Source of the DNA: a virus
DNA: 22,065 nt
Direction: 5' to 3' (one strand)
IMG/VR virus record: IMGVR_UViG_3300032223_001650
Coordinates: 1 to 22,065 of that record
Shown: positions 1,353 through 18,267 of the stretch, in pieces
Layout of the letters: every line of letters starts with the position of its first letter
Position numbering within the stretch: the stretch's first letter is position 1
The notes under the pieces: generated by a model
What the model saw: only the letters and a program-made list of their open reading frames with translations
What the model was told of the DNA's origin: nothing
The model's database searches: none
Translations under genes and position numbers: made by a program

Positions 1353-1435
1353 TCCATTCTCCATGTTAGGCGGGCACCCTTATTTACAAGTCCAAGAGTA
1401 TTAAGCATGTCGGACACTCATGCACCCGTGTTTGG

Positions 1436-1863: not shown

Positions 1864-1873
1864 TGCTCGCCCC

Positions 1874-2737: not shown

Positions 2738-2779
2738 GATTGCCTCCAATAAATCCGGGGTTGGCCCGGCCCGGTAATG

Positions 2780-3043
2780 TTAGGTTCCGTTCCAGCTTCC
2801 GGCGTGCTTTGCCGTTATTTTTGCGTCCTCGGGGTCATTGATTGCGTACTGCCAGCCATCGCGCCACGCGCTGATAAACGAGCGCGACCATGAAAGCTTG
2901 CCGGACGGTTTGCGCTTGTTTTGGTAGGGGCAATCATCAATGCCACGCCCTTCCAATGCTGAATGCATGCCTTTAAGGAATGCGCCACGGTGGGCGCGAT
3001 TCCACAATCCGAAGTTACTAGGCAAGCTTACGAGCGAAGCCAT
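2780..3043 (-). CDS. Ribosome modulation factor (RMF/CrpP)-like protein
   Basis: The middle and end carry the RMF-type pattern: an AHRGAFLKGMHSALEGR stretch, then DDCPYQNKRK, then SWSRSFISAWRDGWQYA. In Escherichia coli RMF the corresponding order is RGY..G..GR...CPYQ....WL.GWREA. RMF binds the small ribosomal subunit near the anti-SD region and makes inactive 100S dimers; CrpP-like relatives also exist. Here the protein is 87 aa, longer than the roughly 55 aa of RMF, with about 20 extra residues at each end. The start at 3043 overlaps the preceding gene by 16 bases and has a weak ribosome site; the internal ATG at about residue 26 would give a shorter, more RMF-sized protein but would cut the motif. 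An effect on host translation is inference. Confidence 0.7.
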   Translation of the reverse strand: MASLVSLPSNFGLWNRAHRGAFLKGMHSALEGRGIDDCPYQNKRKPSGKLSWSRSFISAWRDGWQYAINDPEDAKITAKHAGSWNGT

Positions 3044-3168
3044 TGATCGTAAGACTTGACCGGCCAGCCAAGCGATTCAGCGGCGGCAACATATATTTGA
3101 TATTCCGCATCATTGGTGCCGCGCTGCTGTGTCTGCCAATTTGCATTTGGGATAAGTCTGTCGTCCAT
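3028..3168 (-). CDS. Small hypothetical protein (46 aa)
   Basis: An ORF from ATG 3168 to TAA 3028 encodes MDDRLIPNANWQTQQRG... ending SLGWPVKSYDQWLRS. It has a perfect GGAGG Shine-Dalgarno six bases upstream and fills what would otherwise be a gap between the clamp region and the RMF-like gene. Its 3' end overlaps that gene's first 16 bases. The protein is hydrophilic with three Trp residues; the C-terminal part looks like a short helix. No family recognised. Confidence rests on the ribosome site and the packing of genes. Confidence 0.65.
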   Translation of the reverse strand: MDDRLIPNANWQTQQRGTNDAEYQIYVAAAESLGWPVKSYDQWLRS

Positions 3169-3179
3169 TGTTGCCTCCG

Positions 3180-3245
3180 TTACTTAACTGAGAAAATAAA
3201 GCGGGCCAGCTCGCCTGCCAGCGCCTCGCGGGTTTGGCGGGTCAT
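3180..3245 (-). CDS. Very small hypothetical ORF (21 aa)
   Basis: A 21-residue ORF starts MTRQTREALAGELARFIF. The ATG lies 2 bases after the clamp gene's TAA, with GAGGCGG of the clamp's 3' end as a possible ribosome site. The ORF stops just before the Shine-Dalgarno of the 46-aa gene. It would form one amphipathic helix. It may be a genuine micropeptide, a coupling ORF, or chance; only its position supports it. Confidence 0.4.
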   Translation of the reverse strand: MTRQTREALAGELARFIFSVK

Positions 3246-3247
3246 GA

Positions 3248-3922
3248 TTACGCCGCCTCTGCAATGGGTTCAGCCACAACCGGCGCAACCGGCAATTCCG
3301 GCAGGCTTTCCCGTGCCCAAGCCCCATCCTCAGCAATCGCGGCAGGCAAAACCTTGTTGCTGATGGGCATGATTACCGCGACCATTTCCGATGTGATCCT
3401 AGCCAATGCAGCGCCCTGGCCGTTATAGCCGATGCCGAAGTGTCCATCTTTATTTCCGAAGCATTCCGCCGCTTTGGCGCACCGATACAGGTAAGCCGCA
3501 TTGAATTGTGCAGCTTCGCCCGATAATTTAGATGGAATGACGCGGCGGTAATCCGGAAACAGTCCATCTATTGCCTTAAATATGACAATCTGCCCCGAGA
3601 ATTCCGCCCTCATCTCTTGATCCGGCTTTGCTGCAATGTCATCCGGCACAGTGAGCGTAATGTCATTCAATGCCTTGCTGGCCGGTTTGATCTTGAGCAA
3701 TGACGCGACAGCATCAGACGGCATGATGAGCTTGCAGACGCCCGTATTCTCGTCTTTTGCATCACGCTTATGCACGCCCATCGTATGCCCGTCGGTTGCG
3801 ACTAGGCGCGTCTGAAGCGTATTTGCTTCGATCAATACGCCATTGAAATAATACCGTGTGTCGTTCACGCCAGAGAAAAGGGATACTGCCTTCAGTGCTG
3901 CGCGGTCAATGATGATTTGCAT
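3248..3922 (-). CDS. Two-domain DnaN-like sliding clamp (224 aa)
   Basis: The sequence aligns by eye to domains 2 and 3 of the bacterial DNA polymerase III beta clamp. Residues 21-50 (DTRYYFNGVLIEANTLQTRL then VATDGHTMGV) match the E. coli stretch RYYLNGMLFE...VATDGHRLAV at the start of domain 2. Residues 122-130, FPDYRRVIP, match the domain 2/3 junction FPDYRRVLP, and VAVIMPIS (181-188) matches the C-terminal YVVMPMRL. Clamps encircle DNA and tether polymerase. Bacterial DnaN has about 366 aa in three domains and dimerises; this protein lacks domain 1 entirely and adds a Pro/Ala tail of about 36 residues. AGGAG precedes ATG 3922, and the leader carries the CCACCACAGGAG box shared with other genes in this arm. 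The family is clear; its oligomeric state is inference. Confidence 0.88.
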   Translation of the reverse strand: MQIIIDRAALKAVSLFSGVNDTRYYFNGVLIEANTLQTRLVATDGHTMGVHKRDAKDENTGVCKLIMPSDAVASLLKIKPASKALNDITLTVPDDIAAKPDQEMRAEFSGQIVIFKAIDGLFPDYRRVIPSKLSGEAAQFNAAYLYRCAKAAECFGNKDGHFGIGYNGQGAALARITSEMVAVIMPISNKVLPAAIAEDGAWARESLPELPVAPVVAEPIAEAA

Positions 3923-3946
3923 TTTGTGGCTCCTGTGGTGGAAGGA

Positions 3947-4255
3947 TTATTGTTGCGGTTCGGTTTGGGAAATGTGGAATACGGTTGTCATTCTCGGTTT
4001 TTTGCCAATGGGCACATTCTCTCCGGGATCATTCTTTTTGCTCATTTCTACCCAAGTGAAAACTTTTACTCCGTGCTCACCTTTGCGCACTACTCGCCCC
4101 AGTGCTTTCCATGCGTGAAACGTCAATACATTTTCCCTTGGTGCAATCTGTTCTGCCGGTATTCCCTTGGCCTGAAAACCTGCGAAGATTTGCGGGTAAT
4201 TCGCCCATGATTGCCCATTCTGTGCATTGGCTAAGGCTTGCTGTTGGATGTTCAT
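3947..4255 (-). CDS. ArdC N-terminal-like ssDNA-binding protein (102 aa)
   Basis: The protein matches the N-terminal (ArdcN) domain of the antirestriction protein ArdC: NYPQIFAGFQAKGIPAEQI (about residues 19-37), NVLTFHAWKALGRVVRKGEH, GVKVFTWVEM and the closing PRMTTVFHISQTE. In ArdC this domain binds single-stranded DNA and is followed by a metallopeptidase-like domain; here the protein ends after the first domain, so no HExxH site is present. It probably coats or recognises ssDNA during early replication or DNA entry. The start at 4255 has GGAGG and lies behind the conserved hairpin/CACCAC leader; an open frame extends upstream to 4540 but covers the neighbouring gene. It sits directly upstream of the clamp, consistent with a replication role. 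Confidence 0.85.
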   Translation of the reverse strand: MNIQQQALANAQNGQSWANYPQIFAGFQAKGIPAEQIAPRENVLTFHAWKALGRVVRKGEHGVKVFTWVEMSKKNDPGENVPIGKKPRMTTVFHISQTEPQQ

Positions 4256-4261
4256 TTTGTT

Positions 4262-4322
4262 GCCTCCTGATGTGGTGATTAAAACTGCACTGGACAGGCC
4301 GCAGCCTGTGCGCTGGTGCTGA
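4262..4322 (-). promoter_or_regulatory. Intergenic leader module A1 (hairpin plus CACCAC..AGGAG box)
   Basis: This lies between the 81-aa gene's stop and the ArdC-like start. Read on the minus strand it has a stem ACAGGC/GCCTGT (4294-4309, loop of 4), then CAGTTTTAATCACCACATC, then AGGAGG. The same order recurs at 5264-5329. It could be a terminator/attenuator (T-run only four long) or a translation leader; the function is not shown. Confidence 0.5.
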
Positions 4323-4568
4323 TTAATATCCTCTAGTGGCGGCGTAGATAATTTCCCATGCCGTTTCGTCCGCGTCGCTTGCCATCGCCGCGAGAATCCG
4401 TTGATGCGCCTCTCCATCGATGCGGTGCCTGTATACATGGTATCCGCCCGTGTTTCCAACCCAGCGCACGCCCGCGAGCGTTGCCACTGTGCGATCGGGA
4501 TAGATGCGGGCGATGTCGGTGCAATTGTCGTAGATGCCAACGCTGGTATCGCGTGTAATGGTTTGCAT
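4323..4568 (-). CDS. Hypothetical protein (81 aa)
   Basis: The protein begins MQTITRDTSVGIYDNCTDIA. Its centre, TVATLAGVRWVGNTGGYHVY, looks like beta strands, and it ends in a helix (AMASDADETAWEIIYAAT). No family is recognised. The ATG at 4568 is preceded by TAGGAGA and by the mini-ORF leader at 4571-4606, whose stop lies 2 bases before this start. It lies between leader modules A1 and B1, so it may be expressed by the same scheme as the 143-aa gene at 5330-5761. Confidence 0.75.
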   Translation of the reverse strand: MQTITRDTSVGIYDNCTDIARIYPDRTVATLAGVRWVGNTGGYHVYRHRIDGEAHQRILAAMASDADETAWEIIYAATRGY

Positions 4569-4570
4569 GT

Positions 4571-4606
4571 TTATCTCCTAGTGGTGGTGGGTACTGCTGC
4601 GCCCAT
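4571..4606 (-). promoter_or_regulatory. Leader module B1 with 11-codon mini-ORF
   Basis: On the minus strand an 11-codon ORF MGAAVPTTTRR ends in TAA 2 bases before the 81-aa gene's ATG, and the gene's AGGAGA ribosome site lies inside the mini-ORF's end. The first part is identical over 23 bases (4584-4606) to 5776-5798, where the mini-ORF reads MGAAVPTTSGE. No Shine-Dalgarno precedes the mini-ORF, so its translation is uncertain. The repeated sequence itself is certain. Confidence 0.5.
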
Positions 4607-4619
4607 CTGAATGTATGTC

Positions 4620-4916
4620 TCAGGCAGGCAAGTCGCCCATCGAGACAAGCACGTCGCGGAGCGCATCGGCGGCCCCACCGGACCCATGCCCGCTGATCTC
4701 ATCCAAGCCGGTGATGGCCTCTTGGGAGCTCAGATAGACGCGCATGGAGCTAAGGTCTTGGCGCGTGTAGTCTACCCAAGCGTCGAAGTCGCCCCCATGT
4801 GGGGCGCCCCCGTCGCGTGCAGCATCAGCCGACATCCTATTCACGGCATCGAATTCGTTAAAAGCGGACCAAGCAATCGGCCGTTGCTGGTGGGGTATTT
4901 CGACGATGTAGATCAT
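4620..4916 (-). CDS. Hypothetical acidic protein (98 aa)
   Basis: The protein begins MIYIVEIPHQQRPIAWSAFN. It has an acidic, Ala/Gly-rich middle (SADAARDGGAPHGGDFDAWV) and a C-terminal Gly-rich turn followed by a helix (GGAADALRDVLVSMGDLPA). No family recognised. The start at 4916 has GGGAG upstream. Unlike its neighbours, its leader (4917-4993) lacks the CCACCAC box. That leader contains a possible 16-codon ORF ending in an ATGA overlap with this gene, which I do not annotate. The reading frame is likely real from ribosome site and packing. Confidence 0.7.
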   Translation of the reverse strand: MIYIVEIPHQQRPIAWSAFNEFDAVNRMSADAARDGGAPHGGDFDAWVDYTRQDLSSMRVYLSSQEAITGLDEISGHGSGGAADALRDVLVSMGDLPA

Positions 4917-4993
4917 GTTATTTGCTCCCGAGTAGTTGCCAACGAAGCCCGCTGGCTTAGCATTCCGTGCGACCCGGTTAGGGCCGCAGAGAA

Positions 4994-5263
4994 TCAGAGC
5001 ACGAAATTCATCAGAGTATTGGCGTACAAGTCACGCTGCCCAGACACCTTCCCATGCTCTGTGTTGATGATGGTATAGACAGGCTCAAAGCGCCCGAACA
5101 GTTTGTTAAATGCTTCGCAACGGTACTCAATGCCGACATGCAAACCCTCGGACAAATCGTCATCGCCATCACATGTAAAGATATGCTTGGCAATGGTTGC
5201 AGTCTTGAACAGGCGATACTTGCCCGGATTTGCTGCGAAGTCTTTGGGGTCATACTTGTTCAT
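4994..5263 (-). CDS. Hypothetical protein (89 aa)
   Basis: The protein starts MNKYDPKDFAANPGKYRLFK and continues with IAKHIFTCDGDDDLSEGLHV and IEYRCEAFNKLFGRFEPVYT, suggesting a small alpha/beta domain with two Cys residues. I recognise no family. The ATG at 5263 has CAGGAGATAACAGA before it and sits behind leader module A2 (hairpin and CCACCACCAC box). It is one of several small genes with shared leaders in 3900-5800 and is probably co-regulated with them. Confidence 0.75.
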   Translation of the reverse strand: MNKYDPKDFAANPGKYRLFKTATIAKHIFTCDGDDDLSEGLHVGIEYRCEAFNKLFGRFEPVYTIINTEHGKVSGQRDLYANTLMNFVL

Positions 5264-5329
5264 TCTGTTATCTCCTGTGGTGGTGGATTAAAACCGAACT
5301 GCACAGGACGGGGCCTGTGCGCTGAGGTT
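5264..5329 (-). promoter_or_regulatory. Intergenic leader module A2 (hairpin plus CCACCAC..AGGAG box)
   Basis: Second copy of the hairpin leader. On the minus strand it has a perfect 7-bp stem GCACAGG/CCTGTGC (5301-5320, loop of 6), then CAGTTCGGTTTTAATCCACC, then ACCACAGGAG. Compared with A1, the outer context CAGCGCACAGG and TTTTAATC is kept while the loop differs, as expected if the stem structure matters. Confidence 0.5.
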
Positions 5330-5761
5330 TTAGGCTGTCACTTTCATGCGTGCATTTTCTTCCGTGGCGAGCTGATACAGTCGGCACAGTTGCGCAACCT
5401 CATCCACGTCGGCGGAGATATTTTTGCCATACCCGTCGCAACATTCTGACCATACGCCGTCGCAATCATCCGGCATCATGCTGATGCACTGATGTAGTTT
5501 CCAGCGCATGTTAATACCGGCCATGTCATGCAACTCTTTCCGGTAGGCTTGCAACATTGGCCTATCGGCCAAAAATGCCTGCTGATGTGCCTTTTGATTC
5601 TCAAAAGCGGTTTCTGGGGTAACTCCGGCTTTGAGCTTTGGACCTAGTTTCCATCCAAAGCCTGAATTCTTTAAAACTGTGCCATCCGACATATATCTTT
5701 TAGCCGATGACGTGAAATAAACCGTGCCGATGATGCTGCCGTGCGATGATAGTTTTGCCAT
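5330..5761 (-). CDS. Hypothetical protein, first gene of the leftward arm (143 aa)
   Basis: The protein begins MAKLSSHGSIIGTVYFTSSA and has a beta-like N-terminus (KRYMSDGTVLKNSGFGWKL). A helical middle, residues about 45-95, includes NQKAHQQAFLADRPMLQAYR. A Cys-containing segment follows (CISMMPDDCDGVWSECCDGY, about residues 92-111, four Cys) and then a terminal helix. The Cys cluster could bind metal but is not a recognised zinc-finger spacing. It is the first gene on the leftward side of the divergent region, so it is probably transcribed early. CAGGAGA precedes ATG 5761, and the mini-ORF leader B2 ends 1 base before it. No family recognised. Confidence 0.75.
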   Translation of the reverse strand: MAKLSSHGSIIGTVYFTSSAKRYMSDGTVLKNSGFGWKLGPKLKAGVTPETAFENQKAHQQAFLADRPMLQAYRKELHDMAGINMRWKLHQCISMMPDDCDGVWSECCDGYGKNISADVDEVAQLCRLYQLATEENARMKVTA

Positions 5762-6600: not shown

Positions 6601-6684
6601 ATGTTAGTGTGCGCTCACTGGGGCGGATATGTTAGTGTGTACTCACTGGGGCGGTTGTGTTAGTAAGCGCTCACTGGGGCGGGA
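6601..6684 (+). repeat. Three 28-bp tandem repeats upstream of the small terminase
   Basis: Three units start at 6601, 6629 and 6657, exactly 28 bases apart. Each has TGTTAGT, then a near-palindromic core (AGTGTGCGCTCACT, AGTGTGTACTCACT, AGTAAGCGCTCACT), then GGGGCGG. A degenerate fourth unit (GTTAGTGCTCACC) lies at 6692-6704, off phase by 5 bases. Direct repeats just before a small terminase gene fit a terminase-binding (cosB/pac-like) site; a replication iteron or operator array is also possible. Confidence 0.7.
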
Positions 6685-6782: not shown

Positions 6783-7481
6783 ATGGATACATTTGAGGCA
6801 AAAGCGGTGGTGAGTGAGGAGAAGCAGAGGCGAGTGAATGCGCTGTCTGCGGCTGCTGGACGAGGGGTATCGGAGAGGGTGAGGAAGGTAGCGGCGAGTA
6901 TGTTGTTGGATATAAATCGTTTTGATGGGTGGGTGGAGGAGAGGGGAGGGGAGGAGGGGTTTATGAGGTGGTTGTGTGCGCAGGTAGCGGAGGGGTGTAC
7001 GTTGAAGGGGTTGAGTGTGGAGTATTCGGCGTCGTATGGGTTGCTGTGGGAATTTATGTCGAGTGTGCCGGAGAGGTTGGAGAGGTATTATCGGGCGCAG
7101 AAGGGTGTGGCAGATGCGTGGGTTGGGGAGGTGGTGGAGATAGCTGATGACAAGGGGGAGGATGTGGCGGAAAGGAAGTGGAGGGGACAGGCGAGGATGA
7201 TGGTGGCTGGGAAGTATGACAGGCCGAGGTTTGGGGAGAGGGAGCAGGCTGGGGTGGTGATAGACATGAGGGACAGGAAGAATCCGGAGGAGTTGTTGGC
7301 TGAGGTGAGGGCGTTGGTGGGTGGGAATCCGGTGCTGGCGGGGAAGTTGGCGGAGTTGGGTGTAGGAGGGATGGTGGAGGAAGTGCTTGCGGAGGTGGTG
7401 GAAGTGGGGGAGAATTCTGACGCGGCTGCTGAGTTTGATGAGGGCAGCGTGGAGATTGATCCGAACGAATTGCCTATTTAG
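6783..7481 (+). CDS. terS: Terminase small subunit (Sf6/Nu1-like)
   Basis: The 232-aa protein has the layout of small terminases. An N-terminal helical DNA-binding part includes MRWLCAQVAEGCTLKGLSVE and YSASYGLLWEFM (about residues 60-90). Then comes the characteristic motif RLERYYRAQKGVADAWVGEV, EIADDKGEDV, AERKWRGQARMMVAGKYDRP, RFGER (about 97-158), as in Sf6-type proteins with ...IAD...R...W...K..P..YG. The C-terminus is acidic. Small terminases form rings that recognise the packaging site and hand DNA to TerL. The ATG at 6783 is chosen although no Shine-Dalgarno is visible; a TTG at 6777 is the alternative. The coding strand is strikingly G-rich and C-poor (30 G and 4 C in 6961-7020), with almost no C at third codon positions, unlike terL. 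It follows the 28-bp repeats directly. Confidence 0.8.
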   Translation: MDTFEAKAVVSEEKQRRVNALSAAAGRGVSERVRKVAASMLLDINRFDGWVEERGGEEGFMRWLCAQVAEGCTLKGLSVEYSASYGLLWEFMSSVPERLERYYRAQKGVADAWVGEVVEIADDKGEDVAERKWRGQARMMVAGKYDRPRFGEREQAGVVIDMRDRKNPEELLAEVRALVGGNPVLAGKLAELGVGGMVEEVLAEVVEVGENSDAAAEFDEGSVEIDPNELPI

Positions 7482-7491
7482 GGGATTTGAG

Positions 7492-7695
7492 ATGCCGAAG
7501 GATATTGGTGGTACGAACGGGATGCATATGTCGAGTGGGAAGAATCCTTTCACTGGTGGCGGGGGTAAGACTCCGCGGCCTAAGACGGCTCGGACTGTTG
7601 GGGTGGGTAACAACCCTGGTGGTGAGGGGCATATGGTGAGTGCGAATTCTGCGATGAAGCAGAAGCGTAATTTGACTGGACCTGGGAAGGCATAA
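7492..7695 (+). CDS. Small Gly-rich basic hypothetical protein (67 aa)
   Basis: The protein begins MPKDIGGTNGMHMSSGKNPF and is rich in Gly, Lys, Asn and Pro with a basic C-terminus (NSAMKQKRNLTGPGKA). It looks disordered. AGGGGA lies before the ATG, 10 bases after the small terminase stop. It resembles in composition the 66-aa protein at 8315-8515. A role as a small virion or DNA-associated protein is possible but not shown. Confidence 0.65.
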   Translation: MPKDIGGTNGMHMSSGKNPFTGGGGKTPRPKTARTVGVGNNPGGEGHMVSANSAMKQKRNLTGPGKA

Positions 7696-7697
7696 TC

Positions 7698-7889
7698 ATG
7701 GCGATGACATTGGGGCAGTACATGATTGTTCGTGTGACGCCGGATGAGAAGTCGTATACGTACTGGACGGTTGATCCGGCGTATGGTGGGCCTGCGTTGC
7801 CCAATGAGCCGCCGCAAGCGACGCGGACGACTTCATCCTCGACGTTGGGGACTGCGGTGCAGAATAACATGCCGACGCTGAGTACGTAA
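7698..7889 (+). CDS. Small hypothetical protein (63 aa)
   Basis: The protein begins MAMTLGQYMIVRVTPDEKSY, likely a short beta hairpin, and then becomes Pro/Thr/Ser-rich and probably disordered. It starts 2 bases after the preceding stop, with GGGAAGG upstream, and ends one base before the next start. No family recognised. Confidence 0.65.
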   Translation: MAMTLGQYMIVRVTPDEKSYTYWTVDPAYGGPALPNEPPQATRTTSSSTLGTAVQNNMPTLST

Positions 7890-7890
7890 C

Positions 7891-8070
7891 ATGACGATCC
7901 GGGTGGACAAGACCGAGGACGGTTATGTTTGCCGGGTGCTGCCTGAGCGTGAGTGGGTAGCTGACGTGGATCACACGTTTAACTTGGCTGACTTGGTGGC
8001 GGTGGGTGAGTTTCTGAAGGCGCAGTTTGAGCCGGTGGATGCGCCAGTAGTGGTTGACGCGCCAGTATGA
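7891..8070 (+). CDS. Small acidic hypothetical protein (59 aa)
   Basis: An ORF from ATG 7891 to TGA 8070 encodes MTIRVDKTEDGYVCRVLPER followed by WVADVDHTFNLADLVAVGEF and a Val/Asp/Pro tail. It starts one base after the previous stop and ends in ATGA overlap with the next gene, which supports it despite a weak ribosome site. The fold looks like beta strands followed by one helix. Unknown function. Confidence 0.65.
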   Translation: MTIRVDKTEDGYVCRVLPEREWVADVDHTFNLADLVAVGEFLKAQFEPVDAPVVVDAPV

Positions 8071-8318
8071 AATACGAGTACGCGGGCGGCGTGATGGATC
8101 ACGAGCGGCCAATCATTGAGCGGTTTGAGAATGAAGTGCTGCCGTATGTGATGCGTCACGGCCCGTTGATTGGAGAGATGGCGATGCAGGGGGACATGGA
8201 TGCGGAGCTTGTGATCCGGTTCCAGCGGGCATTTTGCGAAGGCGATCCTGCGTGGCGCGTGATTAACTTCAAGAAGTTATGCGAGTACCTGAAAATTGTT
8301 GAGAGGAAGATACAGTGA
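8067..8318 (+). CDS. Hypothetical helical protein (83 aa)
   Basis: The protein begins MKYEYAGGVMDHERPIIERF and is largely helical: ENEVLPYVMRHGPLIGEMAM, ELVIRFQRAFCEGDPAWRVI, FKKLCEYLKIVERKIQ. It overlaps the preceding stop by ATGA and the next start by GTGA. No motif recognised; it lies in the tight string of small genes between the small terminase and the glycosyltransferase cassette. Confidence 0.7.
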   Translation: MKYEYAGGVMDHERPIIERFENEVLPYVMRHGPLIGEMAMQGDMDAELVIRFQRAFCEGDPAWRVINFKKLCEYLKIVERKIQ

Positions 8319-8515
8319 AAAAGACAAAAAGCTTGCCAGAGACTTCCGGGAAACAGACGGGTAAGGGGTTGAAGCCGGGGCTGAACATGGCAGATACCGG
8401 GAGCGTGGTGAATCAGGTACGCGGGGTGGTGAGTTTTGGGCGTATGTCTGTGAGCGGAAACGATCCCAAGCGTAACGCGATGGTGAGCGGGAACGGTTCA
8501 CGCAAGAGGGGCTGA
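8315..8515 (+). CDS. Small basic hypothetical protein, GTG start (66 aa)
   Basis: The protein starts at GTG 8315 with GAGAGGAAG upstream and overlaps the previous stop (GTGA). It is Lys/Gly/Ser-rich and basic (MKKTKSLPETSGKQTGKGLK ... NGSRKRG), probably disordered, and similar in character to the 67-aa protein at 7492-7695. Its TGA shares a base with the ATG of the first glycosyltransferase (TGATG), so it is coupled to that cassette. Function unknown. Confidence 0.7.
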   Translation: MKKTKSLPETSGKQTGKGLKPGLNMADTGSVVNQVRGVVSFGRMSVSGNDPKRNAMVSGNGSRKRG

Positions 8516-9570
8516 TGCCTGCGGGGTCGTTACTTGATTTCTCTCAGGTATCGCCGGAGGAAGTCAGGGGAGTAAAGAGGGGGCGTCCTATCAATTGGGA
8601 CGCGCTGGAGTTGATGATTCGCACAACCGAGGGGACTGACCTGCAAAAGTCCCTGATGCGAAGGAAAATATTCAAGGCCATCCAGAAGAACGGCATAGAG
8701 AGCCTTGCTCCGCAGTTTCGGTTTCACTATTGCTCGGCCCGTATTGCGCTTGGAGACTACAGCGATTACTGGGGCTGGGAATTCAGAAGCGGCACTGACA
8801 AGGGATCAGAGGATTGGTCCGCGCATCTGTTTTGGGATGAGACTTGGCTCCCTAAATGGGGCGGTGGAAACATCAATAGGCTGCTGGTGATGGGTGAGCA
8901 GGGCTTGGGGGATGCGATATTCCATGCGTCAATGCTGCCTGAGTGCCTGGTGCGCGTGAACGAAGTGATTTTCGAGACTGAAAATCGTCTGCATGGGATT
9001 CTGGAGCGGTCGTTCAAGCGACTAAAATGCAGACCAGAGCGCGAGTTTGAGGACAGGCGGCGCGATTATGGCGTGATCGATGCGTTTATACCTGCGGCTG
9101 ATTTGATGAGGATGTTTCGCAGACACGCATCGCATTTCCCGAGGAAACCGTTCCTGAAACTAGATGAAAAGCGCGTGTTTGAGATGCGCGGATTCACCGG
9201 CAAGACTGCTGTTTCGTGGAAGGGGCGGCAGGGATCGATAGACCCGATGGATTTTGGGTTGGAAAGCCATCAGATGATCTCAGTGCAATATGGAGAGAGT
9301 AACGCCGATATACCTGAGCCGCCGATTGATTTGAAGAACGACATTGAAGGCGTTTTGGCGGTGCTGGATGTGTCCAAGGAACTGATTACAATTCCAACTT
9401 CTGTGCATCACATGGCTGGTGCAATTGGTAAAAAGACTTCAATTATTCATCCGACGATCCACGGCGAAGAAAATCAGATCAAGTGGGACGTAACGCCGGG
9501 TCCATCGCCGTTTTATCCGAATGTCACTGTCTATAAGGACGTGAGAGAGTGGAAAAGCACATCCCTATAA
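8515..9570 (+). CDS. GT-B glycosyltransferase, GT9/GT41 (TPR-GT)-like
   Basis: The 351-aa protein carries hallmarks of the heptosyltransferase/TPR-glycosyltransferase superfamily. LLVMGEQGLGDAIFHASMLP (about residues 123-142, EQGLGD core) opens the N-terminal Rossmann domain. TAVSWKGRQGSID (231-243) opens the C-terminal one. GVLAVLDVSKELITIPTSVH and HMAGAIGKKTSI (279-310) match the nucleotide-sugar site pattern D...LDLVI..DT..AHLAGALG. These enzymes transfer a sugar from a nucleotide sugar; the acceptor here is unknown. The start has GAGGGG upstream and shares a base with the previous stop. The N-terminal 100 residues have no TPR repeats that I can see. It is the first of three glycosyltransferases set between terS and terL. 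The fold is fairly sure. Confidence 0.75.
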   Translation: MPAGSLLDFSQVSPEEVRGVKRGRPINWDALELMIRTTEGTDLQKSLMRRKIFKAIQKNGIESLAPQFRFHYCSARIALGDYSDYWGWEFRSGTDKGSEDWSAHLFWDETWLPKWGGGNINRLLVMGEQGLGDAIFHASMLPECLVRVNEVIFETENRLHGILERSFKRLKCRPEREFEDRRRDYGVIDAFIPAADLMRMFRRHASHFPRKPFLKLDEKRVFEMRGFTGKTAVSWKGRQGSIDPMDFGLESHQMISVQYGESNADIPEPPIDLKNDIEGVLAVLDVSKELITIPTSVHHMAGAIGKKTSIIHPTIHGEENQIKWDVTPGPSPFYPNVTVYKDVREWKSTSL

Positions 9571-9713
9571 CGTGGATTGATGCGCGGGAGGTTGAGGAGT
9601 ACACGCATCGAGAGGACTTTTTCTGTCACTATGAAAAAGAGAATGTAAAAGAGATTGGTGTGCTGATGGACCCGAGGACGCATAAGCCTGTTATGAGGGT
9701 GGTATGTCGGTAA
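9549..9713 (+). CDS. Small hypothetical protein, GTG start (54 aa)
   Basis: A GTG at 9549, inside the end of the preceding gene and with AAGGA upstream, opens a 54-codon frame: MEKHIPITWIDAREVEEYTH ... MDPRTHKPVMRVVCR. It fills the space between two glycosyltransferases, overlapping the first by 22 bases and sharing a base with the next micro-gene (TAATG). It is charged, with His and two Cys residues. No family recognised; gene packing is the main support. Confidence 0.6.
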   Translation: MEKHIPITWIDAREVEEYTHREDFFCHYEKENVKEIGVLMDPRTHKPVMRVVCR

Positions 9714-9808
9714 TGCCGGATCACATCCCATCAGATGCAGAGGAAGAAGAAGTGCCTTGGGACTGCGACAACGGGTACGAGTACGAAATGGGTGGAGATG
9801 ACGAATGA
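9713..9808 (+). CDS. Very acidic micro-protein (31 aa)
   Basis: ATG 9713 to TGA 9808 encodes 31 residues beginning MPDHIPSDAEEEEVPWDCDN. Thirteen residues are Asp or Glu and none is Lys or Arg. It overlaps the previous stop (TAATG) and the next start (ATGA), so both junctions are of the kind seen for real genes here. It could act as a DNA-mimic or inhibitor, or merely couple translation of the two glycosyltransferases; neither is shown. Confidence 0.5.
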   Translation: MPDHIPSDAEEEEVPWDCDNGYEYEMGGDDE

Positions 9809-10491
9809 TCTCAATGGTGATGCCGTATTGGAACCGCAATGCTGCGACTAATCGGGCGATGTGGTTGATCGAGAAGCAATATAAAGACTTGGATTTGGAG
9901 ATTGTAATTGTTGACGACGGAAGCAAAGAAGAATTCATTCCAGAGGGCGATTGGCCTTGGATTAAGATCATTAAACTACCTCGCAAGGATGTTGCGATGG
10001 ATAGTTGTGTTCCGATCAATCGTGGCGTCCAGGAATGCACGGGCGATATTATCGTCTTGACCGGACCTGAGATGCTGCACATCAATCCGGTGTTGCAGGA
10101 GATGCAAAAGGAGTTGGAAGCAACCGGCCCGATGGGCTATGTATCGTGCGCGGTGTGGTATGAGCGGGATAAGCAGTGGCATGCGCACTCAAGTTTGGTC
10201 AGGGATGGACAACGAGACAACTACAAACAGCCCGTGAATTCAGCGTTTCACTTCTGCACAATGCTGTACAGAACCCTGTGGGACAAGGCCGGTGGGTTTG
10301 ATGAGGAATACCGCGATGGCTCGCACTGGGATGACCCGGACTGGGTAAATCGAGTGGCAAGGGCTGGCGCGGTATTCAAGATCAGGGACGATCTGGTGAT
10401 TGAACACACCAGAGATGGCGCGGAAACCTGCTGGCCTTCGGGGGGAAACGACCGAAACAAAGCACTATTTATGAGGAAGTGGCCTCAATGA
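9805..10491 (+). CDS. Glycosyltransferase family 2-like (GT-A)
   Basis: The 228-aa protein starts with the GT2 pattern ISMVMPYWNR (2-11), then LEIVIVDDGS (31-40), the nucleotide-binding first half of a GT-A fold. NRGVQECTGDIIVLTGPEML at 72-91 stands where many GT2 enzymes have a DxD; here the motif is the xxPExxH variant, which I know from some phage and bacterial GT2 proteins. FDEEYRDGSHWDDPDWVNRV (about 169-188) is the acceptor/catalytic region (DD pair). The C-terminus ends FMRKWPQ. It transfers sugar from a nucleotide sugar to an unknown acceptor. The start overlaps the micro-gene by ATGA, and the end overlaps the next glycosyltransferase by ATGA. Confidence 0.85.
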   Translation: MISMVMPYWNRNAATNRAMWLIEKQYKDLDLEIVIVDDGSKEEFIPEGDWPWIKIIKLPRKDVAMDSCVPINRGVQECTGDIIVLTGPEMLHINPVLQEMQKELEATGPMGYVSCAVWYERDKQWHAHSSLVRDGQRDNYKQPVNSAFHFCTMLYRTLWDKAGGFDEEYRDGSHWDDPDWVNRVARAGAVFKIRDDLVIEHTRDGAETCWPSGGNDRNKALFMRKWPQ

Positions 10492-11114
10492 TTACGATTG
10501 CCTGCGTGAAGTCCAAGCCCTATTACAACCGGCATGACGTACACAAGCTTTGGGACATGGTTGAACGGAACATAACCATTCCTCATCGCTTTGTCTGCTG
10601 GACCGATGATAGTCAAGGGTTGCGCTGCAAAACAAAAAAGCTGCCAGCAGGGCTAGAAGGATGGTGGGCAAAGCTTGCGATGTTTAAAGAAGGTTCGATG
10701 GATGGCAAAGTCTTATATCTTGACCTTGATACGCTTGTTGTTGATAGCCTGGATTTTGTCGGAAATTACAGTGGAGATTTCGCCATACTCAGGGATTTCT
10801 ATCGGCCTGAAGGCTACGGTTCGGGGGTGATGCTGTGGAACAAGCTTCCAACACACATATGGAAACAATGGTCAAAGCTTCAGACGTTTCATCCGGACGG
10901 AGATCAAGGAATCATTGAGCAGTATGTAGAGAATGCGGATCGCTTGCAGGACGTTTATCCTGACAAGTTTCTAAGTTATAAGGTTCATTGCGATAAGGGA
11001 ATTCCGAAGGGATGCGCCGTGGTGTGCTTTCATGGGTATCCAAAGCCGGAGGACTTTGACCCCGAACACTGGGTTCAACAAATCTGGAATGGGCAAAAGG
11101 CGCTGGCCGCATGA
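10488..11114 (+). CDS. Glycosyltransferase, GT8-like with DxD motif
   Basis: Starting at ATG 10488 (an ATGA overlap; a GTG nine bases earlier is less likely), the 208-aa protein shows a GT-A fold. It has ITIACVKSKPYYNRHDVHKL at the N-terminus, FVCWTDDSQG (35-44), WWAKLAMFKEG, then KVLYLDLDTLVVDSLDF (74-90) with the metal-binding D79xD81. YGSGVMLWNK follows, and near the end CAVVCFHGYPKP, matching the FHG.PKP ending of GT8/glycogenin-like and related phage transferases. The donor is expected to be a UDP-sugar with a divalent metal; the acceptor is unknown. Its stop overlaps the terL start, tying it to the packaging operon. Confidence 0.8.
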   Translation: MITIACVKSKPYYNRHDVHKLWDMVERNITIPHRFVCWTDDSQGLRCKTKKLPAGLEGWWAKLAMFKEGSMDGKVLYLDLDTLVVDSLDFVGNYSGDFAILRDFYRPEGYGSGVMLWNKLPTHIWKQWSKLQTFHPDGDQGIIEQYVENADRLQDVYPDKFLSYKVHCDKGIPKGCAVVCFHGYPKPEDFDPEHWVQQIWNGQKALAA

Positions 11115-12577
11115 GTGCTGTATTGAAAGAGGACGCAGAGCTTAAAAAGCTGACAAGGCTGATGGCAGACCTTGAGCATTCTCTTTCAATCAATAAGCTT
11201 TCCTACTACAAGCCCTATCCCTACCAGATCAGGTTCCACAACTCCAGAGGGCAGGGGACTGACAAGCCAGCATCGCAGCGGTTGCTGATGGCGGCGAACA
11301 AGATTGGCAAAACCTATTGCACGGCGATGGAAACGGCCTATCACGCGACCGGGCAATATCCTGATTGGTGGGAAGGGACTCGATTTACCACGCCAGTTGA
11401 AATGCTAGTTTCCGGAATGACCAATGACAGTGTGCGTGACATTGGACAGCGGGAGTTGCTCGGGAACCCTACGGATATTCATTCGCTAGGCAAAGGGACC
11501 ATCCCGAAGAAGTCTATTGGAAAACTACGCACGAAAGTTGGCGTACCCAATGCTTACGATTCTGTCAGGGTCAAGCATGTTACTGGTGGTGAATCAACGA
11601 TTTACTTCCGCGCCTACGAGCAGGGCTGGAAAAAGTTTCAGGGGATTAAGTTCAGCGCAATCTGGCCCGATGAAGAACCGCCAGCGGAGATTTGGTCGCA
11701 GTTGATCCGCGCAACACTGACAAACCAGCAGGCCATCATCTATTGCTCGATGACGCCAGAGGAAGGAATGACTGAGATTGTCACTCAGTTTATGGAGAAC
11801 TTGCAGATAGGGCAGGCGCTTATTACTGCAACTTGGGATGATGCGCCACACTTTTCTGAGGAAGAAAAAGAACAAAGGTTGGCCGCACTGCGCCCTCACG
11901 AGCGGGAGATGCGATCTAAGGGTATTCCGTTACGTGGTGCTGGACTGGTATTCCCTGTGCCTGACGATAACCTACTTGTTGAGCCTTTCCCCATACCTAA
12001 GCATTGGCCGCAGATTGTGGGAATTGACTTTGGTATTTCGACGCAGCACCCGTTTTCAGCGGCTCGGTGGGCATGGGATCGGGACAATGACATTAAGTAC
12101 CTGATTGCCGAGTTCCAGACCAGTAACGACCTTCCAGCGGCCCACATTGACGCGATCAACACATGGGGAAAATGGATTCCGGTGTCGTGGCCGCATGATG
12201 GAGCGAACCGGGAAAAGGGGACTGGGGATGAATTGCAGCAGACTTACCGGAAAAAGGGCCTGAATCTGCTTCCTTGGAAGGCCACGAATCCGCCAACCGT
12301 GGGACAGAAGGAAGGAGAGGGCGGAAATTCGGTTGAAGCATCGATTTTGTCCATGCTGGACGATATGTATCAGGGCAGAATCAAGGTTTTTCGGACCTGT
12401 CCTACGTTTTTTCGAGAAAAAGCCTTGTATCACAGGGATTTGAAGGGCAAAATCGTAAAAATGCACGAGGATTTGATTTGCGCCGCAAGATACGGCCATA
12501 TGATGATTCGCCATGCCAGGGTCATTTCCATTCGTCCCCCTGTGCAAAAATTACCTTCGGGTATCCGGCAATGGTAG
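11111..12577 (+). CDS. terL: Terminase large subunit (packaging ATPase/nuclease)
   Basis: The 488-aa protein is a complete TerL, the motor that cuts concatemeric DNA and pumps it through the portal. ATPase domain: Walker A variant AANKIGKT at 61-68, Walker B AIWPDEE at 183-189, coupling motif YCSMTPEEG at 211-219. RNase H-like nuclease: IVGIDFGIS (D306), VSWPHDGANREKGTG (D363) and KMHEDLICAARYG (D454), the three acidic residues expected. Length is typical. It starts in an ATGA overlap with the GT8-like gene and is followed by the portal after 9 bases. The unusual point is that glycosyltransferases, not only small packaging genes, separate it from terS. Confidence 0.95.
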   Translation: MSAVLKEDAELKKLTRLMADLEHSLSINKLSYYKPYPYQIRFHNSRGQGTDKPASQRLLMAANKIGKTYCTAMETAYHATGQYPDWWEGTRFTTPVEMLVSGMTNDSVRDIGQRELLGNPTDIHSLGKGTIPKKSIGKLRTKVGVPNAYDSVRVKHVTGGESTIYFRAYEQGWKKFQGIKFSAIWPDEEPPAEIWSQLIRATLTNQQAIIYCSMTPEEGMTEIVTQFMENLQIGQALITATWDDAPHFSEEEKEQRLAALRPHEREMRSKGIPLRGAGLVFPVPDDNLLVEPFPIPKHWPQIVGIDFGISTQHPFSAARWAWDRDNDIKYLIAEFQTSNDLPAAHIDAINTWGKWIPVSWPHDGANREKGTGDELQQTYRKKGLNLLPWKATNPPTVGQKEGEGGNSVEASILSMLDDMYQGRIKVFRTCPTFFREKALYHRDLKGKIVKMHEDLICAARYGHMMIRHARVISIRPPVQKLPSGIRQW

Positions 12578-12586
12578 AGGTTGTAA

Positions 12587-14809
12587 ATGGCTGAGACTAC
12601 GGTTGCAAAAACATCGACCATGAGCAGCGACGGGAAACCGGCTGACGAGGTAAAGCCGCTGTTCAAGGCTAAGAAGATCACGAAAGCCGATTGGTCAAAG
12701 GTTGAGAAGTTCTTGAAAGAGGACTTGGAAAACCGAAAGTTGTCAGATTTCCGCAAGACTCACGAGAGCATTTGGAAAGAGGTTGACCGGCAGGTTGCCA
12801 TGCAGCCCATGCTCAAGGTTAACCGTGACGGTGCCGAGATCGACATGGGCTGGCACAACGTCATTGAGTTAGGAGAGCTTTCCAAGGCATCTGAGAACAT
12901 CGCAGCCGATGTGGTGAGGATTACCTTCCCCCAGTCCCGTTTTTGGTTTGAAGCCCATTCTGACATTGTTGAGAGCATGGATTGGGACGATGACGGGAAC
13001 AAGAAGGTTGATCCAAAGCTTCAAACCGGGGTAGATGGTCGGTTGCGCTCAATGATGGTTCACCAACAAAAGGATTTTGGGCTGGAATCGTCTTGCGAAC
13101 TGTCGATTAAGGAAGCTTTGCACCACGGCAGTTATGTGGTTGAGGTGGACTGGGAAGAACAGGATTTCATTCAGGACGGGGACAAGGTAAGCACCAAGGG
13201 TGCGCCGAAGTGGATTCCGCACTCGATGTGGAACTGCTACCCCGATCCAAGCCCGTCCGTCATTGGCACGAGCATGTTCTATACCGGGAGCATGTTCATT
13301 GAAAGCTACATGCCCAGGTACAAGTCCGAACAGTGGATAAAATGCGGAGAGGACGGTTGGATGCCCTCCCAGTGGAAAAAGGTGTCCAAGGATGAGCATG
13401 TGCTTAAATCAGGCGGTCAGGAGCGAAAAACCAAGGATGTGAAGATCACGACCTACTGGGGCGATGTGGCAATCGAGCGAGACAATGAAACGCTCTTTTA
13501 CCCAAACCATAAAGTCAGGCTGTTCAACGGGACCATTGTGTATATGGCTCCCAACAAAATTCCCTTTAAAAACATTATCTTTGATGGGTACGAGCGCATG
13601 GATGTACGCGATCCGTACTATATGTCGCCCATCATAAAAATGTCGCCCATGCAGAAGTTGGCAAGCACATTGACCAACAAGTTCATGGATGGGGTGGAAT
13701 TGCACATCGAGCCGCCTATTGTCTATGACGGGAACGATCCGGACTTCGTAATCAACGGTGGGCCTGTGATTGCGCCGGGAGTCAAGGTTTCGACCAAGGG
13801 CACTGCCAGCTTCAAGGAAATTCAGATTGGCGACCTGAAAACGCCGCTTGAGGCTTTGCAGTTGTGCCTGTCTGAGATGAAGGAAAAGCTTGGGCGTCCC
13901 GGCAAGGATGTTGGAGATAGGGCAACCAAGGCCGAGGTAGTCAAGAATTCGCAGGACCAAGAGGTGTCGCTTGTCCGATTCATTGGCAGGTTTGAATCCT
14001 CGCTCCGCTCTTACCTGTACATGCAGCACGCCTTTAATCTTAGGGAATTGAAGGACATATCTTTTTATTCGCCCGAAATGTCCGATCCTGACTTCATCCG
14101 GATCAAGAACGAGGATTTGCCTCGCTCAGTACATTTTGAGGTTGTGGGTAGTCGTGGGGTGCTTGGAGAAGAAGAACGTAGCCAGAAGATGAGTGCAGTT
14201 ACGGCATTTGCTTCTGGCAATCCGTTGTTTGCGCCCCTGCTCAATGCGCCCTCGTTGCTTACCAAAATGTATCAGGATGCGGGGGTGAAGAACGCCGAGA
14301 CATTGCTGGTCAATCCGGGCGACTTGGACCCGCTCACGCTTGCCGCCAAGCTCAAGCAAACCATGCAGCTTACGCAGCAGCTTGCCGCGCAGTTGAAGGA
14401 TGAGAAGTCCAAGAATCAGTACAAGATGACCAAGATTCAGGCCGACCAGCAATTCAAGATGCAAAAGCTTCAGGCCGACCAGCAGGCCAAACAAGCAGCC
14501 GCACAGGCAGCGCACCTGAAAGATATGGAATCGGCCCGTCAGTTCAATGAGCAGCTAAAGCAGGACATGAAAAAAGAGCGTGATGAGTTTGTGGCGAAAA
14601 TGGCAAAGATCGAGGCGGATATGCAAAAGTCCGGTCTTAATTTCCACAACTCACAACTGGATAGGCTTACTCAGCAGCAGTTGAATGAAACCATCGACCA
14701 GAAGCTTGCTTCGCACAAATCAGAAATTATTGAGGCCGTGAAGTCGAGCAAAACCACCCGGATCAAGAAAGACAAAGCCAGCGGTAGTTATGAGGTTACA
14801 CAAGAATGA
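12587..14809 (+). CDS. Portal protein with long coiled-coil C-terminus
   Basis: The 740-aa protein is in the portal position directly after terL and has portal-like content. The N-terminal helices (DWSKVEKFLKEDLENRKLSD) are followed by a wing/stem core with PKWIPHSMWNCYPDPSPSVI at about 200-220. DPYYMSPIIKMSPMQKLAST and NKFMDGVELHIEPPIV lie at about 345-385, and EMKEKLGRPGKDVGDRATKA at about 430-450, the region leading to the long clip/stem helix. The last 150 residues are Gln/Lys/Ala-rich coiled coil with an 11-residue repeat (MTKIQADQQFK, MQKLQADQQAK), similar in kind to the barrel extension of P22-type portals. AGAGG precedes ATG 12587. Portals form dodecameric rings at one capsid vertex. 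The family call relies on context plus these features. Confidence 0.85.
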   Translation: MAETTVAKTSTMSSDGKPADEVKPLFKAKKITKADWSKVEKFLKEDLENRKLSDFRKTHESIWKEVDRQVAMQPMLKVNRDGAEIDMGWHNVIELGELSKASENIAADVVRITFPQSRFWFEAHSDIVESMDWDDDGNKKVDPKLQTGVDGRLRSMMVHQQKDFGLESSCELSIKEALHHGSYVVEVDWEEQDFIQDGDKVSTKGAPKWIPHSMWNCYPDPSPSVIGTSMFYTGSMFIESYMPRYKSEQWIKCGEDGWMPSQWKKVSKDEHVLKSGGQERKTKDVKITTYWGDVAIERDNETLFYPNHKVRLFNGTIVYMAPNKIPFKNIIFDGYERMDVRDPYYMSPIIKMSPMQKLASTLTNKFMDGVELHIEPPIVYDGNDPDFVINGGPVIAPGVKVSTKGTASFKEIQIGDLKTPLEALQLCLSEMKEKLGRPGKDVGDRATKAEVVKNSQDQEVSLVRFIGRFESSLRSYLYMQHAFNLRELKDISFYSPEMSDPDFIRIKNEDLPRSVHFEVVGSRGVLGEEERSQKMSAVTAFASGNPLFAPLLNAPSLLTKMYQDAGVKNAETLLVNPGDLDPLTLAAKLKQTMQLTQQLAAQLKDEKSKNQYKMTKIQADQQFKMQKLQADQQAKQAAAQAAHLKDMESARQFNEQLKQDMKKERDEFVAKMAKIEADMQKSGLNFHNSQLDRLTQQQLNETIDQKLASHKSEIIEAVKSSKTTRIKKDKASGSYEVTQE

Positions 14810-15834
14810 ACCTGTTAAGCGCTGTCAATTATGACCCTGCTGTTGCTGTAACAAAGGCAACCAGCGCATTATTGGCGATGACCGCAGTAGATACAACCAA
14901 TCTCAGATTAGCAATTACAGTACCCTCTCATGGAATTGTCCGGTTCAGGCTGCAATGCAATTTGTCCGGCGCAACCACGATGCCGCAAATTTTGCTTGGG
15001 GTACTGAATGGAGCCACTGTTCTTGGGAGGCAGGTTCCTTTAGCCGCATTGCCCGGAACTGCGCTTGCTACGACGAACGTACCCCTTGTGGCTGACTTTA
15101 TTGCAACCGGCCTTACCCCCGGAGCAATGAATGTTGACGCTGCGTATGGTGTGGAAACCATTGTTGCTGCAACAAATATTCACTATGGCGGACCTAACGA
15201 TACCACCGTAAATAATGCATGGGGTGGATTTGCATTTGAAGCATGGGACCCAAGGCCGGTGCCAACAGCTACGCCGGGAGCGGCAAACGGGTTGCTGATT
15301 TGCGGAAGTAATGCGGCAACGACTGTAAATATTACGGGAAGTTTAAGTGGATCGGTAGGAAGCGTAACCGGATCAGTTGGTAGCGTCACTGGGCTTACGG
15401 CATCTAATCTTGATGTTGCTGTTTCTAGTCGGATGGCTACATTCACTTTGCCAACCAATTTTTCAAGCCTCTTGATTACCAATGTCGGCTCAGTTACAGC
15501 AGGGACTGTTTCCGACAAAACGGGATATAGTTTAAGCCAAACATTCCCGACCAATTTCTCATCCTTGTCCATAACTGCGGGTGGTGCGGTTACTGCGGGC
15601 ACGGTCAGTGATAAGACAGGGTATGCACTAACATCTGCTTATGACGCAGCAAAAACAGCATTGCCTGCCAGTTCATATACCGCGCCTGATAATGCCAGTG
15701 TGGCCGCTATTAAAACAAAAACAGATAGCTTGGCATTTACGGTATCTGGGAAAGTGGACTCCAATTTACTTTATGTGAATGGGTCCGCAATAACCGGCAG
15801 CGGAACCAGCGTTAGCCCTTGGGGACCGGCATAA
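14806..15834 (+). CDS. Repeat-containing virion structural protein
   Basis: The 342-aa protein is Thr/Ser/Ala/Gly/Val-rich and almost lacks charged residues, typical of beta-structured virion proteins. The first 160 residues look like one beta-sandwich domain. Then come a short repeat GSVGSVTGSVGSVTG and two 32-residue units beginning PTNFSSL at residues 216 and 248 (216-247 and 248-279), each ending near AGTVSDKTGY. The repeats agree in protein but have diverged in DNA (15451 and 15547, 96 bases apart), so the duplication is old and selected. The C-terminus is TGSGTSVSPWGPA. It may be a head decoration or an appendage protein. The start overlaps the portal stop by ATGA. Confidence 0.65.
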   Translation: MNLLSAVNYDPAVAVTKATSALLAMTAVDTTNLRLAITVPSHGIVRFRLQCNLSGATTMPQILLGVLNGATVLGRQVPLAALPGTALATTNVPLVADFIATGLTPGAMNVDAAYGVETIVAATNIHYGGPNDTTVNNAWGGFAFEAWDPRPVPTATPGAANGLLICGSNAATTVNITGSLSGSVGSVTGSVGSVTGLTASNLDVAVSSRMATFTLPTNFSSLLITNVGSVTAGTVSDKTGYSLSQTFPTNFSSLSITAGGAVTAGTVSDKTGYALTSAYDAAKTALPASSYTAPDNASVAAIKTKTDSLAFTVSGKVDSNLLYVNGSAITGSGTSVSPWGPA

Positions 15835-17175: not shown

Positions 17176-18267
17176 ATGGCTACCGTAATCACGACAAATG
17201 CAACCTATCTAACTCAGCCGATTAACTACGTGCTGATGAAGGGGTTGCTGCAAGCTGCACGCAAGAAACTCCCTTACTTCAACGGAACGCTTCCGGGCGA
17301 TCTGATTAAAAACGGCGGTTCGTCTGCCGTGAAGTGGGAGCGTATCAACAACCTGACCGCCGTTACTACGGCATTGGGCGAAGTTACTGGCAACTCCTCG
17401 TTTCTGTTTGGGCGTGCGCTGGTTACTCCGACTTATTCATCTGTTACCGCAACTGCCGCCAAATACGGCAATGCGATTCAGGTGACTGAGGAAGTTGACC
17501 TGTTCAACGTCAATACCCGCAGTGCAAAGCTCATGGACACCCTCGGCGCGAATGCTGGTGAGTCCCTGAATACCATTGCCAAGGCGGAATACGACAATGC
17601 CACCCTGATTCGCTATTGCGCAAATACGGCTGGTGGTGCTGCTACTTCCGGCAAGTCCTATGTGTCCAGCAAAATGGTCACTACCGACTTGCAGTATGCG
17701 GTGAACACGCTGAACGCAAACGCTGCAATGCCTTTCACTCCGATGGCAACCGGCTCGCGCAACATTGGCACAAACCCTGTTCGGGTTTCGTACTACGGGA
17801 TTACGCACGTTGACTCCGAGGAAGATATTCGGACGATGACGGGCTTTATCCCTGTTGAGCAATACGGTGGCTACACAGAAACCATGCCTTTTGAATTTGG
17901 CGCGGTGAATGGTATTCGCTGGTGTTCCACTCAGGTTGCTACAATTAACCTGTCTGCCGGTAAGAAAACGGCGACTGGCTATCGTGGATCGACCAACATC
18001 AAGAACGACGTTTATACGTCTTACGTATATGGTCGTGAAGCGATTGGTACGGTTGGCCTGGGCAACATGCACGCGAGCAATTCGTATGAGATGTATAACC
18101 CGAAGTATCCTCCCGCTGTTGAGGTGATCTTTAAACCGGCTGGTTCGGCTGGTGCGGGTGATCCGTACAATGAAATTGCATCGCTGGCGTGGAAATCATG
18201 GTTCGTTGCCAAGATTCTCAATTCAAACTGGATTGTGAAGCTGTTCCATCTGGCAACCAAGCTGTAA
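17176..18267 (+). CDS. Major capsid protein, N4-gp56 family
   Basis: The 363-aa protein matches what I know of the N4-gp56 capsid family. The N-terminus has ITTNATYLTQPINYVLMKGL and LLQAARKKLPYFNGTLPGDL. KWERINNLTAVTTALGEV (about 54-71) and a spine-helix region with EEVDLFNVNTRSAKLMDTLG (about 105-124) follow. The P-domain/A-domain stretch includes YYGITHVDSEEDIRTMTGFI and VEQYGGYTETMPFEFGAVNG, and the end is SNWIVKLFHLATKL. This HK97-fold subunit forms the shell. GGAAGGA lies upstream but can be covered by the hairpin at 17148-17166. The gene is followed by another strong hairpin. Codon use is more C-rich than in the small terminase, as expected for a highly expressed gene. Confidence 0.92.
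   Translation: MATVITTNATYLTQPINYVLMKGLLQAARKKLPYFNGTLPGDLIKNGGSSAVKWERINNLTAVTTALGEVTGNSSFLFGRALVTPTYSSVTATAAKYGNAIQVTEEVDLFNVNTRSAKLMDTLGANAGESLNTIAKAEYDNATLIRYCANTAGGAATSGKSYVSSKMVTTDLQYAVNTLNANAAMPFTPMATGSRNIGTNPVRVSYYGITHVDSEEDIRTMTGFIPVEQYGGYTETMPFEFGAVNGIRWCSTQVATINLSAGKKTATGYRGSTNIKNDVYTSYVYGREAIGTVGLGNMHASNSYEMYNPKYPPAVEVIFKPAGSAGAGDPYNEIASLAWKSWFVAKILNSNWIVKLFHLATKL

Follow-up and report, generated by a model that had tools for sequence, protein, structure and literature searches.

A putative virion glycosylation cassette between the terminase genes of an environmental phage lineage

To our knowledge, glycans on virions have been demonstrated in only a few phages. In mycobacteriophages, capsid and tail-tube subunits carry glycans (Freeman 2023, as cited in PMC12619734). 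On the bacterial side, FlmG is a cytoplasmic O-glycosyltransferase of flagellin whose tetratricopeptide repeat (TPR) part binds the acceptor (PMC7591256). Here we describe a block of glycosyltransferase (GT) genes in 22,065 nucleotides of viral DNA (IMG/VR record IMGVR_UViG_3300032223_001650, positions 1 to 22,065). This whole stretch is called the window, and coordinates given without a record name refer to it. The block lies between terS and terL, the genes of the small and large terminase subunits; the window and its relatives with this arrangement form lineage A. We propose, with a probability of about 0.6, that the block encodes soluble enzymes and works as an exchangeable cassette for glycosylation, its product being a variable glycan on a virion protein, probably one of the head. 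The first enzyme is kept in place among relatives while the rest is swapped, and the same enzyme types stand behind the capsid genes of unrelated phages; the phage therefore probably sugar-coats its own particles.

Three glycosyltransferase families and their relatives

The block and the gene into which it runs are as follows:

8515..9570, + strand: GT9-like (GT-B) glycosyltransferase, kept as first gene of the cassette (AlphaFold2 model, fold search, homology)
9549..9713, + strand: micro-gene m1, 54 amino acids (open reading frame and overlap)
9704..9808 (alternative ATG at 9713), + strand: micro-gene m2, 34 amino acids, acidic (conserved motif)
9805..10491, + strand: GT2-type glycosyltransferase (PF00535, E 5.6e-9)
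10488..11114, + strand: GT8-like glycosyltransferase, homologue of PmgQ of phage P1 (phrog_1962, 4.3e-34; fold)
11111..12577, + strand: terminase large subunit, terL (PF03237, 4.2e-24; PF17289, 1e-14)

The preliminary description of this DNA had reported GT9-, GT2- and GT8-like enzymes and two micro-genes from 8515 to 11114, with every junction overlapping and the last one entering terL. This is indeed what is read there. One nucleotide is shared at the TGATG leading into the GT9-like gene (8513-8517) and at the TAATG between m1 and m2 (9711-9715), 22 nucleotides are shared by the GT9-like gene and m1, and an ATGA joins m2 to GT2 (9805-9808), GT2 to GT8 (10488-10491) and GT8 to terL (11111-11114). 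The simplest start of the GT8-like gene is the ATG at 10488, a GTG at 10479 being a longer option. Genes of phage operons often overlap, and such junctions carry little weight alone. The second micro-gene is considered real because close relatives (L003, L004, L005 and L006) keep its acidic E-E-x-(I/V)-P-W-D motif. Pfam and PHROG profile searches found no family or relative for m1.

Fold support and conserved order in relatives had been set beforehand as refutation tests. Both were passed. Glycosyltransferase folds were recovered by model and fold match for the GT9-like and GT8-like proteins, and the PF00535 match supports the GT2 protein. Among PDB structures, the model of the GT9-like protein (pLDDT 89.7) comes closest to heptosyltransferases of family GT9 and to TibC, a protein heptosyltransferase, with Z 14-14.7 across 211-220 residues. 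Within this range, WaaC, WaaF and a Veillonella GT9 score 14.1-14.7 and TibC 14.0-14.2. No Pfam family, PF01075 included, matches this protein, and PF01075 does match a second GT9 found in relatives; for want of that match the window enzyme is named GT9-like rather than GT9. Residues Q129, G130, G132 and D133, which form a Q-G-x-G-D loop, are invariant in 21 GT9-like sequences; in heptosyltransferases, the G-x-G-D loop holds the catalytic aspartate. The GT2 protein scores 36.6 bits against PF00535 (curated cut-off 23.3); no central D-x-D is obvious by eye, and the sequence at that place is LTGPE. The GT8-like protein (model pLDDT 94.0) has a GT-A fold and is nearest to glycogenin (Z 18.1), the Skp1 galactosyltransferase (Z 17.8) and LgtC (Z 17.4). 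Its D79-L80-D81 and H182-G183 motifs are invariant, and it is homologous to P1 PmgQ (5.1e-31); no Pfam family matches it.

The bacterial relatives of the GT9-like enzyme point to protein glycosylation. In a sample of the class to which an Eilatimonas genome (G012) belongs, a profile of the enzyme matched 33 of 115 genomes at E 1e-10 or better, and the matches sampled were glycosyltransferases with TPRs (TPR-GTs), which are the closest cellular relatives among those tested. The Eilatimonas homologue overlaps a NeuB gene, an arrangement that resembles the FlmG-NeuB pathway of flagellin glycosylation. The link to FlmG runs through these TPR-GT relatives. The window protein itself has no Pfam TPR match, and only about 110 residues precede its GT domain.

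Searches of viral contigs with terL and the GT9-like protein, together with one phage record, yielded 26 further records carrying both genes, among which a few are near-duplicates (L004-L006, L083/L102). Profile searches and gene calling gave the same order in all 26, as far as each contig reaches: terS, small genes, the GT9-like gene, variable cargo, terL, portal. The GT9-like gene is the first of the cassette, at 29-94% identity between relatives. Behind it stand a second GT9, GT2, GT8, radical SAM/SPASM proteins, FkbM and other methyltransferases, a C-methyltransferase, DegT aminotransferases, Nudix proteins, sugar epimerases and matches to Capsule_synth. The lineage-wide set is thus variable cargo behind one conserved gene, and not a fixed trio. 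In L094, the stretch from terS to the GT9-like gene contains a pair of SDR epimerase genes and a TPP-dependent enzyme in split form (L094:5593-8980), so that this phage appears to carry its own genes for sugar-nucleotide synthesis. L087 has a GT8 fused with a GT2-like C-terminal part, and in L084 an N-terminal domain with no Pfam hit precedes the GT8 domain. A 2OG-Fe(II) oxygenase gene (PF13640) directly upstream of the GT9-like gene in L095 (895-1458) encodes an enzyme that could hydroxylate an acceptor.

Such variability would also be expected if the gap between terS and terL were a tolerant insertion site gathering unrelated moron genes with separate roles. We consider this improbable. The first gene is fixed in place, and its distances follow those of terL (Spearman 0.52, 0 of 5000 permutations, n=21), so that the GT9-like gene travels with the phage core. 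The cargo is also enriched in one class of enzymes relative to a control of 79 proteins encoded upstream of terL in terL relatives that lack the GT9-like gene. These were small terminases, lysozyme and others, with no sugar- or methyl-transfer set among them apart from one Wzy_C O-antigen ligase and one weak radical-SAM match. The GT2-GT8 fusion in L087 likewise speaks for a common role. More distant terL relatives lack the arrangement of GT9-like gene and cargo. Judged from these sequences, the arrangement is not a random insertion, and the conserved position and order in the 26 other records bear out the preliminary description on this point.

The full cassette was found in no known isolate among 50,697 phage records; the only exceptions are MW202713 and MW202512, both metagenome-assembled. 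One scan of bacterial genomes for close prophages gave only a terL at 35% in Eilatimonas and weaker matches in metagenome-assembled genomes.

Homologues behind capsid genes and the probable target of the proposed glycan

Homologues of two of the three enzymes recur in the head modules of other phages. Lineage B (loci within L106-L161) has GT9-like homologues at 25-31% identity, and the phages there have another portal (phrog_1216), another scaffold (phrog_3927) and another capsid (phrog_1328). Wherever a locus shows both the major-capsid and the GT9-like gene (47 of 47), the latter lies 0.37-1.5 kb downstream of the former, in the same orientation. Most of these homologues are about 440 amino acids long, with an N-terminal region that reads as TPR-like. 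One such protein is encoded behind the capsid gene at L109:8452-9774, with genes for a methyltransferase and a virion protein after it; no cultured member of this metagenomic lineage was found in the analysis. In MW202512 the row consists of the capsid gene, two small genes, a TPR protein, an open reading frame annotated as endonuclease, an FkbM methyltransferase and a GalT-like gene. In lineage C the capsid belongs to yet another family (phrog_9953). GT8-like homologues lie 0.5-1.9 kb downstream of its gene in 26 of 26 loci, and the 27 major capsid proteins of this lineage form 14 groups at 70% identity. A profile of the window capsid gave no significant match to the capsid proteins of lineages B and C.

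The preliminary description had placed the target among the components present at assembly, namely capsid, decoration protein or DNA. The general part of this proposal gains support, because GT9- or GT8-like homologues follow the major-capsid gene in lineages B and C. Its DNA candidate is disfavoured. Glycosyltransferases of DNA-hypermodifying phages are known (Pyle 2024, as cited in PMC12619734), the block adjoins the genes of the packaging motor, and a predicted 203-amino-acid protein of the closest long relative, G001, has an SSPPCQ motif, read by eye, as in C5-cytosine methyltransferases. A glycan built on hydroxymethylated phage DNA during packaging is nevertheless very unlikely, because no thymidylate-synthase/hydroxymethylase gene (PF00303) was found in 12 long relatives, records that may be incomplete (the control was positive in 9 of 14 genomes), and because a Pfam scan of 30 other G001 genes and 8 window genes, which left out a 748-amino-acid replication protein and genes of less than 80 amino acids in G001, detected no base-modification enzyme. 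The TET/JBP dioxygenase family PF12851 gave no match in the same 12 relatives, but its control was likewise silent.

The main rival to a virion target is the host surface. The cassette might alter the core of the lipopolysaccharide (LPS) or the capsule, either in lysogens or late in an infection, and thereby prevent superinfection or release progeny from debris that carries receptors. GT9, GT8, GT2, epimerases, DegT aminotransferase and the Capsule_synth match are indeed typical of LPS and capsule loci, the GT9-like fold is near the LPS heptosyltransferases WaaC and WaaF, and some members of the lineage are probably temperate, since L083 is annotated with integrase, cro and dicA. We nonetheless regard surface modification as possible but less likely. 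Among 207 cassette-region proteins, six have a 19-residue stretch with a Kyte-Doolittle mean of at least 1.6, only one, a 46-amino-acid open reading frame, has the look of a membrane segment, and neither Pfam content nor hydropathy revealed a flippase, polymerase, membrane-anchored GT or multi-pass membrane protein. Matches to sigma-70-like promoters in the region are not above chance. The recurrence of homologues behind the capsid genes of unrelated lineages, and TPR-type relatives that point to protein acceptors, also argue against a surface role. Thus, a protein target is favoured by the TPR-GT relationship, by the recurrence beside capsid genes and by cassettes without membrane proteins.

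The following course of events can be envisaged for a virion target. A cytoplasmic protein-glycosylation cassette would sit inside the late packaging and head operon. Its GT9-like enzyme, related to FlmG and other bacterial TPR protein O-glycosyltransferases but trimmed, would probably start a glycan on a virion protein during the synthesis of that protein, the acceptor being most likely a capsid, head-fibre or decoration protein, and the GT2 and GT8 enzymes would then extend it. In relatives, the extension part would be exchanged for other GTs, methyltransferases, radical-SAM enzymes, aminotransferases and sugar-nucleotide enzymes, and related phages would therefore show different glycans. 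Stepwise building by exactly these three enzymes, as in the preliminary description, is something that we infer.

Several points weigh against glycosylation of the virion. The TPR array with which FlmG binds its acceptor is missing from the window enzyme, whose fold is equally near LPS heptosyltransferases and TibC. Placement near head genes suggests late co-expression and does not show the target. That the enzymes are active, which sugars they transfer, in what order they act and on which protein are matters of inference. The 47 lineage B loci are phylogenetically narrow: their 47 major capsid proteins form ten groups at 95% identity and a single one at 70%. The GT8 gene is accessory in lineage C, where no GT is annotated behind the capsid gene of the isolates Mx8, BUCT555 and ppBjS10J-1, and phage P1 can grow without its homologue, pmgQ (PMC10695390).

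More tentatively, and with somewhat less than even confidence, one may see here a widespread, previously undescribed coating of tailed-phage heads. A phage-adapted TPR-type O-glycosyltransferase would start a glycan on a head protein, an exchangeable downstream cassette would make this glycan variable in the manner of a serotype, and enzymes of such families would have been taken up by three or more unrelated head modules. No description of the position, the TPR-GT origin or the modular cargo was found in the literature searched, which is not proof that none exists. If virion glycosylation is correct, several environmental phage lineages carry a FlmG-like cytoplasmic O-glycosylation route within their late operons, where the locus stays fixed and the glycan changes fast. 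Such phages would offer a testable case of glycan diversification in bacterial viruses, and sugar-coated phages could be recognised in sequence data by a TPR-GT gene, whole or trimmed, that neighbours a capsid or terminase gene.

Layout of the packaging operon

The remaining features of the operon are the following:

6601..6684, no strand assigned: three tandem 28-bp repeats, ATGTTAGTGTGCGCTCACTGGGGCGG.. (repeat search)
6783..7481, + strand: terminase small subunit, terS (phrog_1482, E 4.6e-7; gene call)
7492-7695, 7698-7889, 7891-8070, 8067-8318 and 8315-8515, + strand: five small genes from terS to the GT block (gene calls)
12587..14809, + strand: portal protein (phrog_332, 7.6e-17; phrog_1216, portal protein, 2.2e-8)
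14806..15834, + strand: repetitive protein rich in Ser/Thr (24%), encoded between the portal gene and the capsid gene (composition)
17176..18267, + strand: major capsid protein (phrog_1357, 6.8e-35)

The GT block does lie between terS and terL, as first described, but it does not adjoin terS (6783-7481), from which the five small genes (7492-8515) separate it. The products of 7492-7695 and 8315-8515 are small, basic and rich in Gly, Ser and Asn, with homologues kept in L003 and L005. They have similar C-terminal motifs, resembling MVSxNxxxKxR, and are conserved in close relatives. A reading in which small Gly/Ser-rich peptides together with radical SAM, methyltransferase and GT would form a RiPP-like system was dropped, the radical-SAM gene being confined to L003-L008 and the s5-like peptide being found by profile only in the window, L003, L005 and duplicate loci. 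The non-coding 28-bp repeats, immediately 5' of terS, are possibly a late-gene regulatory or packaging site. Two products, the Ser/Thr-rich protein, to which profile searches assigned no family, and the major capsid protein, are speculative candidates for the glycan acceptor.

Leftward early-type genes occupy positions 301-5761 on the - strand, including those for a DNA polymerase III beta-clamp-like protein (3248-3922) and an anti-restriction protein like the N-terminal part of ArdC (3947-4255). Rfam and tRNA scans of the window gave no matches. In G001, a GARS/PurD-like ATP-grasp enzyme is encoded amid late virion genes (L243:3630-4928).

Comparison with known systems

Unlike phage DNA-glycosylation systems, lineage A shows no thymidylate-synthase-like hydroxymethylase (0 of 12 relatives), and unlike the O-antigen conversion modules gtrABC, it has no membrane flippase or membrane-bound GT among the cassette-region proteins, as judged by hydropathy. 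With TibC, WaaC and WaaF the GT9-like protein shares the GT-B fold (Z 14-14.7), and the Q-G-x-G-D loop is conserved in the phage family, whereas identity is only 7-14% and the phage protein has no PF01075 match. The pmgO-pmgP-ppp-pmgQ region of phage P1 contains the GT8-like homologue pmgQ (5.1e-31), with the sialyltransferase-like pmgO close by; in contrast to the window block, it does not lie between terminase genes and has no GT9-like gene in the stretch examined. The P1 region is nonessential. A set of proteins (cluster 6; L092:10002-10571 and relatives) had been considered sialyltransferase-like, an assignment rejected for lack of a match to pmgO.

FlmG and the bacterial TPR-GTs are soluble and have a homologous GT-B catalytic domain, and lineage B phages keep the N-terminal TPR. 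The window protein differs in having neither the TPR array nor a neighbouring NeuB, and a virion protein would take the place of flagellin as acceptor. Mycobacteriophage virion glycosylation (Freeman 2023, as cited in PMC12619734) likewise involves phage-encoded glycosyltransferases; there the capsid and tail-tube proteins carry the glycans, whereas here a virion glycan is predicted. The system described here also differs in that the GTs of a podovirus-like lineage are enclosed by terS and terL, the first of them being a GT9-like enzyme of the TPR-GT type, and in that its tailoring genes are exchangeable. As in phage virion glycosylation systems, the GT genes of lineages A, B and C are found within the head and packaging module.

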